DNA of 55,140 bases from an uncultured Granulosicoccaceae bacterium (lineage in GTDB: Bacteria > Pseudomonadota > Gammaproteobacteria > Granulosicoccales > Granulosicoccaceae), in NCBI GenBank assembly GCA_937951345.1, contig CALFCF010000053.1, positions 1 to 55,140 of the forward strand, read 5' to 3'. Every line of letters starts with the position of its first letter. Within the stretch, counting starts at the first letter, position 1. The translations under genes and the position numbers were made by a program. The notes beneath the pieces were generated by a model that was not told the origin of the DNA, searched no databases, and was given only the letters and a program-made list of their open reading frames with translations. Of this stretch, positions 51,039-55,140 are shown piece by piece.

Positions 51039-51115
51039 AGGCGCGTAGCTCAGTTGGTTAGAGCATCACCTTGACATGGTGGGGGTCGGTGGTTCGAATC
51101 CACTCGCGCCTACCA
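51039..51115 (+). tRNA. tRNA-Val (GAC)
   Basis: A complete 77-nt cloverleaf with encoded CCA. The acceptor AGGCGCG (51039-51045) pairs with CGCGCCT (51105-51111); the D-arm GCTC/GAGC, the anticodon stem TCACC/GGTGG and the T-arm GGTGG-TTCGAAT-CCACT all close. The anticodon loop TTGACAT carries GAC, read as Val. Discriminator A at 51112 and CCA at 51113-51115. It is a single gene, with no tRNA cluster around it. Confidence 0.97.
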
Positions 51116-51641: not shown

Positions 51642-54600
51642 TCAATTTGCTGTATCCGTTTTGTAGAATAGATAATCGATGCTGTCATCTTTTGCAACAG
51701 TGTCGTCGTCGCTTTGGCTGCTTGACACTATAGGTAGAGGATCAAGTTGTTTCCAATATGGTGTAACTGACAGTAAACTGGCCAGAAGGGTGCCACCTCT
51801 AAGCAGCCATATAAGAAAGCCGGTAGTAAGTCCCAAGGATGTACCTATGACAACCTCGGAAGACGTCCCTTCCTGTTCAAGCGTATCAGCCAGTCGATTA
51901 AAGTTTTGTTCTATTGAATCAATACTGCTTTGAAAGCCACCGTTTTCAATTTGCAATTCAATCCATCTTTGTGTATCAAAATCTATCTCGATTGGGTTGA
52001 GTTCCAGAAAAGTTGTGAAAATTTGATCACGATAGTTACTCTGAGCATTACCGATATCAGCTGTTTCTAGCATTTGTAGTGTCAAATCATCAATCTCACT
52101 GGCTTGTTGTGAAACCGTAATAGCAAAAGGTAGATCAGGGATTCGCAGCTCTGCCAGGAAAGCGTCGGTCCTGTCGATTTCAGTTTGTTGATTATCTGTA
52201 AAGATGCTTGTCGTTGCAATTTCGGTTGCAGCGGTTTCATTCTCCGATTCTGTCTCCAGTAACTCCTCTGTTTGATTTAGCGCCTCTGCTACGTCGATGG
52301 CCACTGAGGTTTCATCGATAGATACAGTAAGATCCTCTGCCTCAATAACAGATTCTATCGCAGTAGGTGTAACTGATAACCCGGGCGCATCTATTGTATT
52401 AGTCACTGGTAGAGCGGCAGCAGTTGTTGGTTCGATCAGTAAATCCAGTGTTGCTGTCTGGCCTATGCTGACGCCATCATCAATCAGCAGGACAAGCTCG
52501 CCGCCCGTGGTCAGAGTGCCATCGTGCGTCAAGGTGACGCGTCCATTATTTATATCATCCTGGGTGAATTGTTGGACGGACATGTCGTTTATTGAGAGAC
52601 TGATTCCCGGCACTGGTTCGACTATCTGATACACAATATCCGGCGCGTTATGGTCGTTGTCGAGTGACAGTAGAATCGTACTATCGAGTACAACTTCACT
52701 GGCAAATGTCAAATTTATGTTCGCTTGATTCAGGATATCCGGTTCATCATTGACGGCAATTACATGTATCTCGCGGCTAACAACGTTTGAAGTTAGATTG
52801 CCGTCAAAGACTGTGAATGTTATTTCCCGATTGATTTCAGACGGATTCTCACTGTTATTCAAATAGGCGATGGATCTTAGTATCTCGGTGTAATCGGCAA
52901 CAGAAGCAGTACCGCTAATATTGATAGTGCCGGTGCTGTTATCAGATGAGATGATCAAATTCTGTGCGATTGCCTGTTCCCGTATCGCATTACTCATTAC
53001 CAGAAAATCCTCTCCAGCACTAAATCCCTGACTGAAAGATACTATTGCTGAACTTAGCTGACCCGACTCGGGTGCAAGTGCGAGTAATGTGTCAGTGAGA
53101 CTAATTGGAAGCTGGCCTTCGGTATACTGCAGAGGCGGTTGCTCGACGGCGACCAAAGCTGGTGCTTCGACTATATTGGTGATTATTACAGAGTGCTGTG
53201 CGGTGTCGTCGGGCGTTGTGCCCACAGTTGGATCATCTATATTCAGCTGAACATCCAATCGTTGCTGCGTTTCGAAGTCCAGTGCAACATCCGTAGCCAG
53301 TACCAGTTGATTGCCCGCAATATTGAACAGTGCAGCATCATCCCCGGACAGCGTAACACTCCCTGAGCCGAGCGCATCGTCGGTTACGACAATGTCCGCT
53401 ATAACGATTTGGGTGGATGTATCAATATTTTCGGGTAAGCTGTTAACAGTGTTCGTCAGATTAATTGTTGGTGGATCATTGATGCCAAGTACATCAATTA
53501 CCAACGAGTCGGAACCGCTTACGCCAAGATTCAACGATGTGTCTTCGATCGTTACAGCAACATTTAATTGAGACACTAGGTTGCTGTCAAGAGTCACCCC
53601 GGGTCTGAGGAACAGGGCGTTATTGTTAATTTCAAACAGCGCGGCATCCGCCCCGATTAGTGACAGAGTGTTTGTACCTTGCGAGTCATCGGCAATCAGA
53701 ATCTCTGCAACCTCAAATGGTGCAGAGATAATCTGGTTCTCAGGAATCTGTGTCACTGTGTTGATCAGTTGAACATTCGGTGCATCGTTCACGGGTTGTA
53801 TGTTCAGCGTGACAATGCCTGTGTTACTTCCACCGGATGGATCGTTTGCCGCATAACTGAACGTATCGAATATCGTGTCGCTACCATCGTGATCGTAGCT
53901 AAATGTGCCGTCGCTGTTCAGAGTTAGCAATCCGTTTGCAACATCAGTTAGTAGCGTATAATTCAACAGATTACCATCGGCGTCGCTATCGTTGAGGCTG
54001 ACATCTCCCGAAACGGCTGCCCCTTCGAACAATGAAAAACTATCATTGTTGACTGTAGGTAGATCGTTGACGGGTGTTATTGAAATAGCCACGGTTGCGT
54101 CGCTGACCGCACCGAAAATATCTGTCTGGCGGTAAACGAAAGAATCAGTTGTGGTTTCACTGCCGTTGTGCTGATAGGTAAAGGTGCCGTCCGGTTGTAA
54201 TGTGACGGTGCCGTTGCTGGGCGCATTAACCAGGCTGGCGATCAATATGTCGCCATCGGCATCACTGTCATTGTTGGCCAGATCACCGGCAAAGACACCA
54301 CCTTCTAGCAAAGTAAACCCGTCCGGCAGTGCAACAGGTATGTCATTCACTGGCGCAACGGAAATACTGACGAGTGCGTCATTAAAACTACCAGACGGAT
54401 CCGTTTGTCGATAGACGAATGAATCGACAGTGGTTTCCGAGCCATCGTGCTGATAGGTAAAGGTGCCATCCGGTTGTAATGTGACAGTGCCGTTGCTAGG
54501 TGCATTAACCAGGCTAGCGGTTAACGTATCGCCATCAGCATCACTGTCGTTGTTGGCCAGATCACCGTTGAAGACACCGCCTTCTTGCAAAGTAAAACCG

Positions 54601-55140
54601 TCGGGCAGCACTGTGGGCGCATCGTTAACGGGTGTAATGGTAATGTTAACAACGGCGTCACTAAAACTGTTAGACGGATCGGTTTGTCGATAGATGAATG
54701 AATCGACAGTGGTTTCCGAGCCGTCGTGCTGATAGGTAAAGGTGCCATCCGGTTGCAATGTAACAGTGCCGTTGCTGGGTGCGTTCACCAGGCTAGCGGT
54801 TAACGTGTCGCCTTCAGCATCACTGTCATTGTTGGCCAGATCACCATTGAAGAGAGCGCCTTCTTGTAGTGTGAAGGTGTCAGGCATTGCCGATGGAGGT
54901 GAATTTAACGGATCGATGGTTGTTCTAAGAAAGACATTGCTGTCGCTGAACGAATTAATCGTGTTGTTACCGATATCACCAGTTATCGCAAAGTTCGGGA
55001 ACGAGAAGGGGGCTCCAAAGTGAACGAAATCGAGCTCCATATAGGTTGAGTCGACAGCATGCAGCCGAAGATCACCCGGGGTGCCGCTGAAGCCCGGCTC
55101 AGGTAAAAATCGTAACAATGAGTCCGCACTCAGAAGTGTT
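51642..55140 (-). CDS. Large cadherin-like repeat protein with C-terminal membrane anchor (partial)
   Basis: The 3' 3.5 kb of a gene that enters from beyond the window; the frame is open to the edge, so the N-terminus is missing. At least 1166 residues are visible. From the ATG-like TTG at 55118, four 93-residue cadherin-like repeats (about 75-446) carry DSDADGDTL calcium-type motifs and end PVNDAP. Two cadherin-like domains, one further domain and a CSPG-like repeat (FTQDDINNGRVTLTHDG) follow. Then come an acidic linker, one transmembrane helix (GTSLGLTTGFLIWLLRGG region) and a 40-residue tail with WKQLDPLPIV. It is probably an adhesin-like protein anchored by its C-terminus. Confidence 0.88.
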   Translation of the reverse strand, partial: TLLSADSLLRFLPEPGFSGTPGDLRLHAVDSTYMELDFVHFGAPFSFPNFAITGDIGNNTINSFSDSNVFLRTTIDPLNSPPSAMPDTFTLQEGALFNGDLANNDSDAEGDTLTASLVNAPSNGTVTLQPDGTFTYQHDGSETTVDSFIYRQTDPSNSFSDAVVNITITPVNDAPTVLPDGFTLQEGGVFNGDLANNDSDADGDTLTASLVNAPSNGTVTLQPDGTFTYQHDGSETTVDSFVYRQTDPSGSFNDALVSISVAPVNDIPVALPDGFTLLEGGVFAGDLANNDSDADGDILIASLVNAPSNGTVTLQPDGTFTYQHNGSETTTDSFVYRQTDIFGAVSDATVAISITPVNDLPTVNNDSFSLFEGAAVSGDVSLNDSDADGNLLNYTLLTDVANGLLTLNSDGTFSYDHDGSDTIFDTFSYAANDPSGGSNTGIVTLNIQPVNDAPNVQLINTVTQIPENQIISAPFEVAEILIADDSQGTNTLSLIGADAALFEINNNALFLRPGVTLDSNLVSQLNVAVTIEDTSLNLGVSGSDSLVIDVLGINDPPTINLTNTVNSLPENIDTSTQIVIADIVVTDDALGSGSVTLSGDDAALFNIAGNQLVLATDVALDFETQQRLDVQLNIDDPTVGTTPDDTAQHSVIITNIVEAPALVAVEQPPLQYTEGQLPISLTDTLLALAPESGQLSSAIVSFSQGFSAGEDFLVMSNAIREQAIAQNLIISSDNSTGTINISGTASVADYTEILRSIAYLNNSENPSEINREITFTVFDGNLTSNVVSREIHVIAVNDEPDILNQANINLTFASEVVLDSTILLSLDNDHNAPDIVYQIVEPVPGISLSINDMSVQQFTQDDINNGRVTLTHDGTLTTGGELVLLIDDGVSIGQTATLDLLIEPTTAAALPVTNTIDAPGLSVTPTAIESVIEAEDLTVSIDETSVAIDVAEALNQTEELLETESENETAATEIATTSIFTDNQQTEIDRTDAFLAELRIPDLPFAITVSQQASEIDDLTLQMLETADIGNAQSNYRDQIFTTFLELNPIEIDFDTQRWIELQIENGGFQSSIDSIEQNFNRLADTLEQEGTSSEVVIGTSLGLTTGFLIWLLRGGTLLASLLSVTPYWKQLDPLPIVSSSQSDDDTVAKDDSIDYLFYKTDTAN
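54060..54896 (-). repeat. Three near-identical 279-bp tandem repeats in the cadherin-like gene
   Basis: Units at 54896-54618, 54617-54339 and 54338-54060 each encode 93 residues and are nearly identical in DNA as well as protein; the segment antisense to TFTYQH recurs every 279 bp. A fourth unit (54059-53781) keeps the length but has diverged. Near-identity at the DNA level suggests recent amplification or gene conversion and could allow repeat-number change by recombination. Confidence 0.85.

Follow-up and report, generated by a model that had tools for sequence, protein, structure and literature searches.

A conserved C-terminal tail of LEPR-XLL giant surface proteins and its genomic pairing with one family of inner-membrane sensors

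Results

The main finding of this work is that giant surface proteins with an N-terminal LEPR-XLL motif share a short C-terminal tail module, and that this tail co-occurs in genomes with one family of sensors, next to whose genes it is often encoded and to whose output types its sequence subtypes correspond. We consider it rather probable that the tail serves as an inner-membrane anchor and signalling contact, through which the giants work as co-receptors for a dedicated kinase or c-di-GMP enzyme. The tail is encoded on a stretch of 55,140 nucleotides from an uncultured Granulosicoccaceae bacterium (hereafter the window), where ORF calls place an open reading frame on the minus strand (51642-55139) that reaches no start at the contig end. 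The features of this part of the window, all on the minus strand, are as follows.

51642..55139, minus: C-terminal 1165 aa and stop of a LEPR-XLL giant surface protein (ORF; overlap with contig C32)
53700..54905, minus: tandem-95 / cadherin-like repeats, including four NDSDA repeats at 93-residue spacing, outer limits approximate (Pfam and NCBIfam matches, repeat positions)
52101..52436 (about), minus: acidic linker from repeats to tail (sequence)
51870..51941, minus: predicted stalk helix ahead of the membrane stretch (AlphaFold2, helix 56-77 of the 152-aa tail)
51645-51854, minus: the tail as a whole (sequence, profile)
51801..51854, minus: probable membrane helix VVIGTSLGLTTGFLIWLL (conserved in alignment A6; predicted helix 88-112; hydropathy 1.63)
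51753..51800, minus: RGG break and TLLASLLSVTPYW, its Arg and Trp invariant in A6
51726..51755, minus: WKQLDPLPIV motif of subtype B, with P-Y-W and not P-A-W (alignment, subtype comparison)
51645..51725, minus: acidic C-terminal tail with IDYLF, like the short motif of subtype-B tails (motif match)

Contig C32 of this genome encodes the N-terminal 833 aa of the protein; the window gene joins it through an exact 141-bp overlap whose sequence the genome contains nowhere else, giving a giant of about 1998 aa in total. The C32 fragment starts MQSSGKKKRIRRYRIEVLEPRVLYSAD, carrying the LEPR-XLL motif, and NF012209 matches above its cut-off at C32:12852; on the basis of this match and the unique overlap, the protein belongs to the LEPR-XLL giants. 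The contig-end cut, the LEPR-XLL N-terminus and the two tail subtypes had been overlooked in an earlier note on this DNA.

Two repeat models exceed their cut-offs on the window protein, Cadherin_4 from Pfam (E 2e-74), in the N-terminal part of the window ORF, and tand_rpt_95 from NCBIfam. Linkers in relatives are often P/E-rich (PEPEPE), and a P/E/Q-rich 40-mer occurs in the pre-tail linker of 56/72 giants versus the bodies of 4/72; the window's own linker is acidic, yet stays under the P/E/Q-rich threshold (0.30). We call the hydrophobic segment transmembrane because of its conserved 25-residue predicted helix (88-112, pLDDT 82-85) and the flanks of that helix, and not because of hydropathy alone: the best 19-residue Kyte-Doolittle mean of the tail, 1.63, is borderline, and similar maxima occur in the repeat regions of such giants. 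The AlphaFold2 model of the tail has an overall pLDDT of 62.8, and its stalk helix reaches 83 and 73 in its blocks of ten. The repeats, acidic linker, hydrophobic stretch and WKQLDPLPIV ending that the earlier note had described were all confirmed in the sequence. Its proposed motif set of helix, LRGG and W..xDPLP held in part, since a core W..R.G...S....P.W...DP.P is invariant or nearly so in the alignment while LRGG is not fixed, the RGG position reading RGG, RSG, RAG or QSG; the features W..R.G, P.W and DP.P are all present in the window protein. The terminal motif [VILA][ED]x[LMI][FLI], picked after the sequences had been seen, was found at 13/27 subtype-B tails versus 0.27 expected by shuffling. 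Because IDYLF also fits the loose ESLxxMV-type pattern, the subtype of the window tail rests on P-Y-W and overall similarity.

Used as a single query, the window tail retrieved two further loci in its own genome (E 1.4e-13 and 1.1e-10). Profile A2 was built from these three tails, so that its E-values for them are circular. Profile searches found the tail at the C-termini of giants in 47/115 related genomes and in 23/369 genomes across the class, with 226 confirmed tail loci in one profile scan, and culturable marine genera such as Marinobacter, Neptuniibacter, Amphritea and Neptunomonas carry it. The tail pattern is well beyond chance, and a chance or singleton origin is ruled out by this wide occurrence; the search did not return the tail in this protein only. 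Neither Pfam nor NCBIfam has a model that covers the tail in any consistent way, which, together with the genome counts, upholds the earlier view of a common but poorly described anchoring module. No PDB chain matched the tail profile at E<=1, and PADLOC gave no match. At the other end of these proteins, a LEPR-like motif was present in 30/39 giants, and the first 120 aa of the 39 contained no stretch with KD19 >1.6. In six tail-less genomes, the LEPR giants lack the motif of the tail and stand close to M50-HlyD genes, and the stretches read hold no sensor gene.

The sensor consists of a helix, a periplasmic PAS-like domain, a second helix, an LDPSQA..P.RV motif and a PAS domain, and this input module is common to two types of output, namely a hybrid histidine kinase, accompanied by a GGDEF-EAL regulator, or direct GGDEF-EAL output. 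The tail was found together with the sensor in 45/115 relatives, with the tail only in 2 and the sensor only in none, and in 22/369 class genomes, with one genome for each alone (Fisher p 4e-33, genomes being counted without phylogeny correction). In the window's family, the four tail-less genomes (G007, G010, G024, G044) are also without the sensor, and among the 47 tail genomes the sensor is absent only from G016 and G085. Outside Granulosicoccaceae, the sensor gene directly follows the tail gene at 30/32 loci, often with an overlap of a few bases, whereas just 10/38 Granulosicoccaceae tail loci adjoin a sensor; these counts leave out 10/80 loci with no pattern-matched tail ORF (L092, L093, L094, L099, L103, L119, L121, L131, L141 and L149). 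No sensor was found near L095. In family f1, 132 tails over 44 genomes stand against 86 sensors over 43 (sums of per-genome tables), so that many giants share few sensors. The tie to a dedicated sensor family, like that to the M50-HlyD export set, had escaped the earlier note.

Tail sequence also follows sensor type. P-A-W tails lie beside 42/43 histidine-kinase sensors versus 4/21 GGDEF-EAL sensors, and an E-S-L-x-x-M-V type motif accompanies 40/43 versus 1/21. The data had been inspected before the subtypes were defined and the terminal motif was picked. These counts leave out two pairs in which the sensor is cut or unclassified, and the GGDEF-EAL counts include nine neighbours whose tails fall outside the pattern and were individually read (L211, L213, L214, L215, L217, L220, L221, L224, L225). 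In the window genome itself, contigs C89 and C95 encode subtype-A tails, and the window encodes the tail of subtype B; a matching sensor is present, with one of each type (histidine kinase on C27, GGDEF-EAL on C73). Exceptions are G016, in which a subtype-A tail but no sensor was found (genome 92% complete), G031, with a subtype-A tail and a GGDEF-type as the sole sensor found (77% complete), and G003, G014 and G028, where P-A-W tails stand next to GGDEF sensors. A single old duplication of the entire operon, instead of repeated matching, may account for this correspondence. Mirror-tree covariation of distances beyond the kinase core was weak (partial r 0.30, p 0.0015; kinase core itself 0.25). 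Homology between the tail (..LDPLPIV) and the post-helix motif of the sensor (..LDPSQAIP) was rejected, since hhalign aligns just 4 columns and the profiles are dissimilar; the resemblance of the two motifs is recorded purely as an observation.

Discussion

Our findings suggest how such a giant might be wired into the cell. The protein has no classical signal peptide, and its N-terminus would probably lead through the envelope, by way of an export apparatus that may include HlyD-type adaptors and the M50-HlyD fusion. The C-terminal helix would then halt in the inner membrane, leaving the DPLP tail in the cytoplasm, while the repeats would reach the outside and the P/E-rich linker and stalk would span the periplasm. 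Anchoring in the inner membrane, which the earlier note had proposed, is plausible, with the C-terminus inside. Helix and tail would associate with the dedicated sensor, and the state of the giant, be it ligand, tension or mere presence, would be relayed inwards by this sensor, through a phosphorelay or its GGDEF-EAL domains, to c-di-GMP.

It is also conceivable, although unlikely in our judgement, that the tail is merely a membrane anchor and that the neighbouring sensor is co-regulated with the giant and governs its production without contact. The Trp and Arg flanks of the hydrophobic helix would suit an anchor, and adjacency would arise from a shared operon alone, but the module is kept in unlinked giants, all but two of the 47 tail genomes hold the sensor, and the DPLP and terminal motifs are conserved past the needs of an anchor and differ by sensor type. 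Somewhat less probable is that the M50-HlyD apparatus recognizes the tail as a signal for export or sorting, and that its M50 intramembrane protease would cut off the tail and free the giant. An M50-HlyD gene is present in 22/23 class tail genomes and in 47/47 tail-bearing relatives, and the HExxH and DG motifs are invariant in ten aligned M50 sequences; however, the gene also occurs in 32/346 tail-less class genomes and near tail-less LEPR giants, the tail is tied more closely to the sensor than to the protease, and its order of helix and then motif is opposite to that of LPXTG/PEP-CTERM-type signals.

Improbable, finally, is a Lap-like control from inside to outside, in which the cytosolic state of the sensor would set holding versus release of the giant. 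The predicted periplasmic domain matches the output domain of a LapD orthologue (PDB 4u64, Foldseek E 9e-4), but this is a common extracytoplasmic PAS fold for which WalK, CitA and others score equal or higher, and in VIA-align 4u64 ranks 14 amid general PAS-fold sensors (Z 10.2, rmsd 5.0, 110 aligned). Identification of the sensor as LapD was not accepted, as many PAS-fold sensors score alike. In addition, histidine-kinase outputs fit signalling from outside to inside, and a search of the window's genome (95.5% complete) gave 0 matches to PF06035 (LapG-type protease), with a positive Caulobacter control.

A bolder extension of the co-receptor reading, which we offer tentatively, is that these giants are bacterial receptors of cadherin or integrin kind, single chains that might extend from the cytoplasm across the inner and outer membranes to the cell's surroundings, be exported with the N-terminus in front by a LEPR-XLL / M50-HlyD route, and switch a kinase or c-di-GMP enzyme through their tails upon binding or pull, with interchangeable giants on one or two shared sensors. 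TolC-like or SecA-like parts may belong to this export route in some genomes. For the sensing of contact with a surface or host, a giant fibre tail-wired to such an enzyme would give bacteria a direct connection, mechanical or by ligand, that spans two membranes. Since the tail almost always co-occurs with one inner-membrane signalling enzyme family, this near-constant pairing suggests that giant surface fibres are wired into the decision to stay or leave, and the tail offers a sequence handle for finding such receptors. Neither the tail-sensor system nor the LEPR-XLL / M50-HlyD export route was described in the titles and abstract starts listed from open-licence literature on LEPR-XLL, DUF4347, tandem-95 and large adhesins; descriptions may be in print elsewhere.

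Among known systems, the Lap type (LapA, LapD and LapG; BpfA, BpfD and BpfG in Shewanella) likewise ties a giant surface protein with Ca-type repeats to a GGDEF-EAL/c-di-GMP protein of the inner membrane whose periplasmic domain is PAS-like. In LapA, retention is through the N-terminus, and the C-terminus bears a type I signal. Here, in contrast, the membrane stretch is in the C-terminus and LEPR-XLL at the N-terminus, a hybrid histidine kinase often serves as the partner, and no LapG was found in the window's genome; the Pfam and NCBIfam matches of the window protein include no C-terminal RTX or type I target domain, its C-terminus being the helix-DPLP module. A LapA-type retention module is named in the references of PMC12153261. 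The same source describes adhesins of Bap/BapP type, which resemble the window giant in their cadherin-like and Ig-like domains and marine biofilm setting. For BapP it proposes type I secretion by means of a C-terminal signal, and its abstract and the passages covered mention neither a tail module nor a sensor (PMC12153261). The LEPR-XLL (NF012209) / DUF4347 giants share with our full-length relatives the N-terminal LEPR-XLL, often with DUF4347, but their NCBIfam and Pfam models concern the N-terminus only, and the C-terminal module found here is without a model. LPXTG, PEP-CTERM and GlyGly-CTERM are short C-terminal modules with one helix, common to many surface proteins. The tail is like them in all these respects; unlike them, it carries conserved motifs after the helix, and it is a sensor, not a sortase-like enzyme, that accompanies it most closely in genomes.

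Results

The Window Protein and Its Broken Gene

The giant of the window and the gene downstream of it are as follows:

51642-55139, minus strand, open at the contig end: giant ORF encoding tandem-95 / cadherin-like repeats followed by an acidic linker, then a stalk and a hydrophobic stretch; after these come RGG, TLLASLLSVTPYW and WKQLDPLPIV, and the end is acidic
51039-51115: tRNA-Val (gac), between convergent genes downstream of the giant; a simple scan found no terminator-like site

The window corresponds to C53, one of 115 contigs in a 4.49-Mb genome, and its last 141 bp were identical to the end of contig C32, these being the only two places in the genome. C32 supplies the N-terminus absent from the window (MQSSGKKKRIRRYRIEVLEPRVLYSAD...), plus a laminin-G-like domain, giving a joined protein of about 1998 aa. 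Since the same 141-bp overlap was also observed at the contig pairs C86/C95 and C59/C89, the genome contains three broken giants, each with the LEPR-XLL motif (LEPR) at the N-terminus and the tail at the other end. The third (C59/C89) has an in-frame stop just before the tail (C59, L209 about 230-240; C89, L059) and may therefore be a pseudogene or reflect a sequencing error. On contig C50 (L061), a 745-aa minus-strand ORF similar to the C-terminal part of the window protein stops once the helix is complete and lacks the DPLP motif; it is probably a decaying paralogue.

The Tail Is a Shared Module

Used as a single query, the window tail matched two further loci in its own genome (E 1e-13 and 1e-10). 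At a cut-off of E<=0.01, a three-row profile of these sequences picked up the tail in 47 relatives out of 115, counting a marginal match in G085 (E 0.006); within the same family 44 of 48 genomes had it, and a single genome held as many as 9 copies. With a 22-row profile, a class-wide sample of 369 genomes gave 23 carriers and a phylum sample 2/170, both belonging to the same class. In one scan of named genomes 226 tail loci were confirmed and 80 kept, the bearers including Marinobacter, Neptuniibacter, Neptunomonas, Amphritea, Marinobacterium, Dasania, Sessilibacter, Denitromonas and Burkholderiales bins. In one groundwater betaproteobacterial bin (L137), a single stretch carries two tails, at 2807 and 11494, with a kinase-type sensor after the first.

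Across 57 aligned tails the Arg, P.W and DPLP were invariant; scans of each against Pfam and NCBIfam gave scattered weak matches only, and no PDB chain matched the tail. The AlphaFold2 model, of modest confidence, has two helices, a stalk at 56-77 and one of 25 residues at 88-112. Tail hydropathy was borderline, exceeding 1.6 in 12 of 39 near-complete giants. Of 72 giants, 56 have a P/E/Q-rich linker before the tail, whereas 4 have such a stretch in the body. In these same 39 near-complete giants a classical signal peptide was not evident, since none had a 19-residue stretch above 1.6 in the first 120 residues; a LEPR-like motif lay within the first 200 residues in 30 of them.

Operon and Neighboring Sensor

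The neighbors of the tail gene were clustered and the 80 named loci read, which revealed one operon in the order HlyD-type adaptor, peptidase M50 / HlyD fusion (M50-HlyD), HlyD-type adaptor, giant, hybrid histidine kinase (PAS, HisKA, HATPase, receiver and Hpt, as read in Marinobacter sp. F3R11) and response regulator with GGDEF-EAL. At other loci the same sensor input module carries a GGDEF-EAL output. This module comprises a periplasmic domain between two helices, followed by the nearly invariant LDPSQA[IV]P.RVRSALDT, and its predicted model was confident (pLDDT 83.6), with the common extracytoplasmic PAS fold.

The tail was recognized at 70 loci, 32 titled other than Granulosicoccaceae/Granulosicoccus and 38 from Granulosicoccaceae. 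A sensor directly followed the tail gene at 30 of the 32 (27 found automatically; L122, L125 and L137 by separate reading) and at 10 of the 38. The other two of the 32 are L095, which has no sensor, and L143, which stops at the contig end. At L075, L076, L079 and L087, in four Granulosicoccaceae genomes, the place of the sensor directly downstream of subtype-A (P-A-W) giants is taken by a conserved protein, secreted and 1000-1417 aa long, which looks kelch / galactose-oxidase-like by eye.

By genome co-occurrence, the tail pairs with the sensor and LEPR with M50-HlyD. Among the 115 relatives, 47 had the tail, 45 the sensor and 45 both; among the 369 class genomes the counts were 23, 23 and 22 (Fisher p 4e-33, uncorrected for kinship). 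M50-HlyD was present in 47/47 relatives and 22/23 class genomes with the tail vs. 4/68 and 32/346 without it. The LEPR motif occurred in 35 of the 369 class genomes, 31 of these with M50-HlyD, and in 17 of the 23 class tail genomes.

Subtype Matching and the Predicted Partner of the Window Protein

In directly adjacent pairs, the P-x-W residue was Ala next to 42 of 43 histidine-kinase sensors vs. 4 of 21 GGDEF-EAL sensors, and an ESLxxMV-type motif was found in 40/43 and 1/21, respectively. Six family genomes (G009, G012, G026, G030, G039, G046) have a single sensor, kinase-type by profile score, and the tail read, on another contig, was subtype A. Two genomes did not fit the match: G031, which is 77% complete, and G016, in which no sensor was found.

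Because the window tail has P-Y-W and ends in IDYLF, we place it, on its sequence, in the GGDEF-EAL-type group. In its genome, C73 carries a GGDEF-EAL-type sensor directly after M50-HlyD and HlyD genes, with no giant in between, and C27 a kinase-type sensor. We predict that the window protein pairs in trans with the C73 enzyme. The C27 sensor (L202, 2928-8049) stands alone with an EAL-containing regulator, without adjoining giant or export genes.

LEPR Giants without the Tail

As a contrast set, we read the ends of LEPR giants in six tail-less genomes (G100, G153, G154, G270, G286, G324). The ORFs taken as their C-termini had no tail motif and no stretch >1.48; M50-HlyD lay close to each of the six giants, and the stretches read showed no sensor gene. 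These observations fit an N-terminal export cue common to all LEPR giants, to which the tail would be an add-on. Such a cue, if true, would account for a membrane stop at the giants' very end.

SecA-like or TolC-like (OEP) genes, by Pfam, adjoin some of these giants. L234, L235 and L236 (G100, G154, G286) have a SecA-like ATPase beside M50-HlyD and HlyD genes, assigned by Pfam at L234 and L236 (SecA_DEAD, P-loop_SecA, preprotein cross-linking domain) and by eye at L235; TolC-like OEP genes take its position at L237 and L238 (G270, G324). Together with M50-HlyD and HlyD, these genes look like an undescribed giant-export set.

Discussion

The shared tail, the LEPR N-terminus, the operon, the co-occurrence and the subtype matching are established by observation. 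We hypothesize that the HlyD/M50 set exports the giant, which would be anchored in the inner membrane with its tail inside; there the tail may contact the sensor, and a signal could pass from outside to c-di-GMP. TonB has a periplasm-spanning linker, which the P/E/Q-rich pre-tail linker of the giants recalls by analogy. Two features set the window protein apart from Lap-type systems: Pfam and NCBIfam gave it neither an RTX domain nor a type I target domain, and no LapG was found in its genome. The tail-sensor pair shares the defining features of no known family, although each part is of a known kind.
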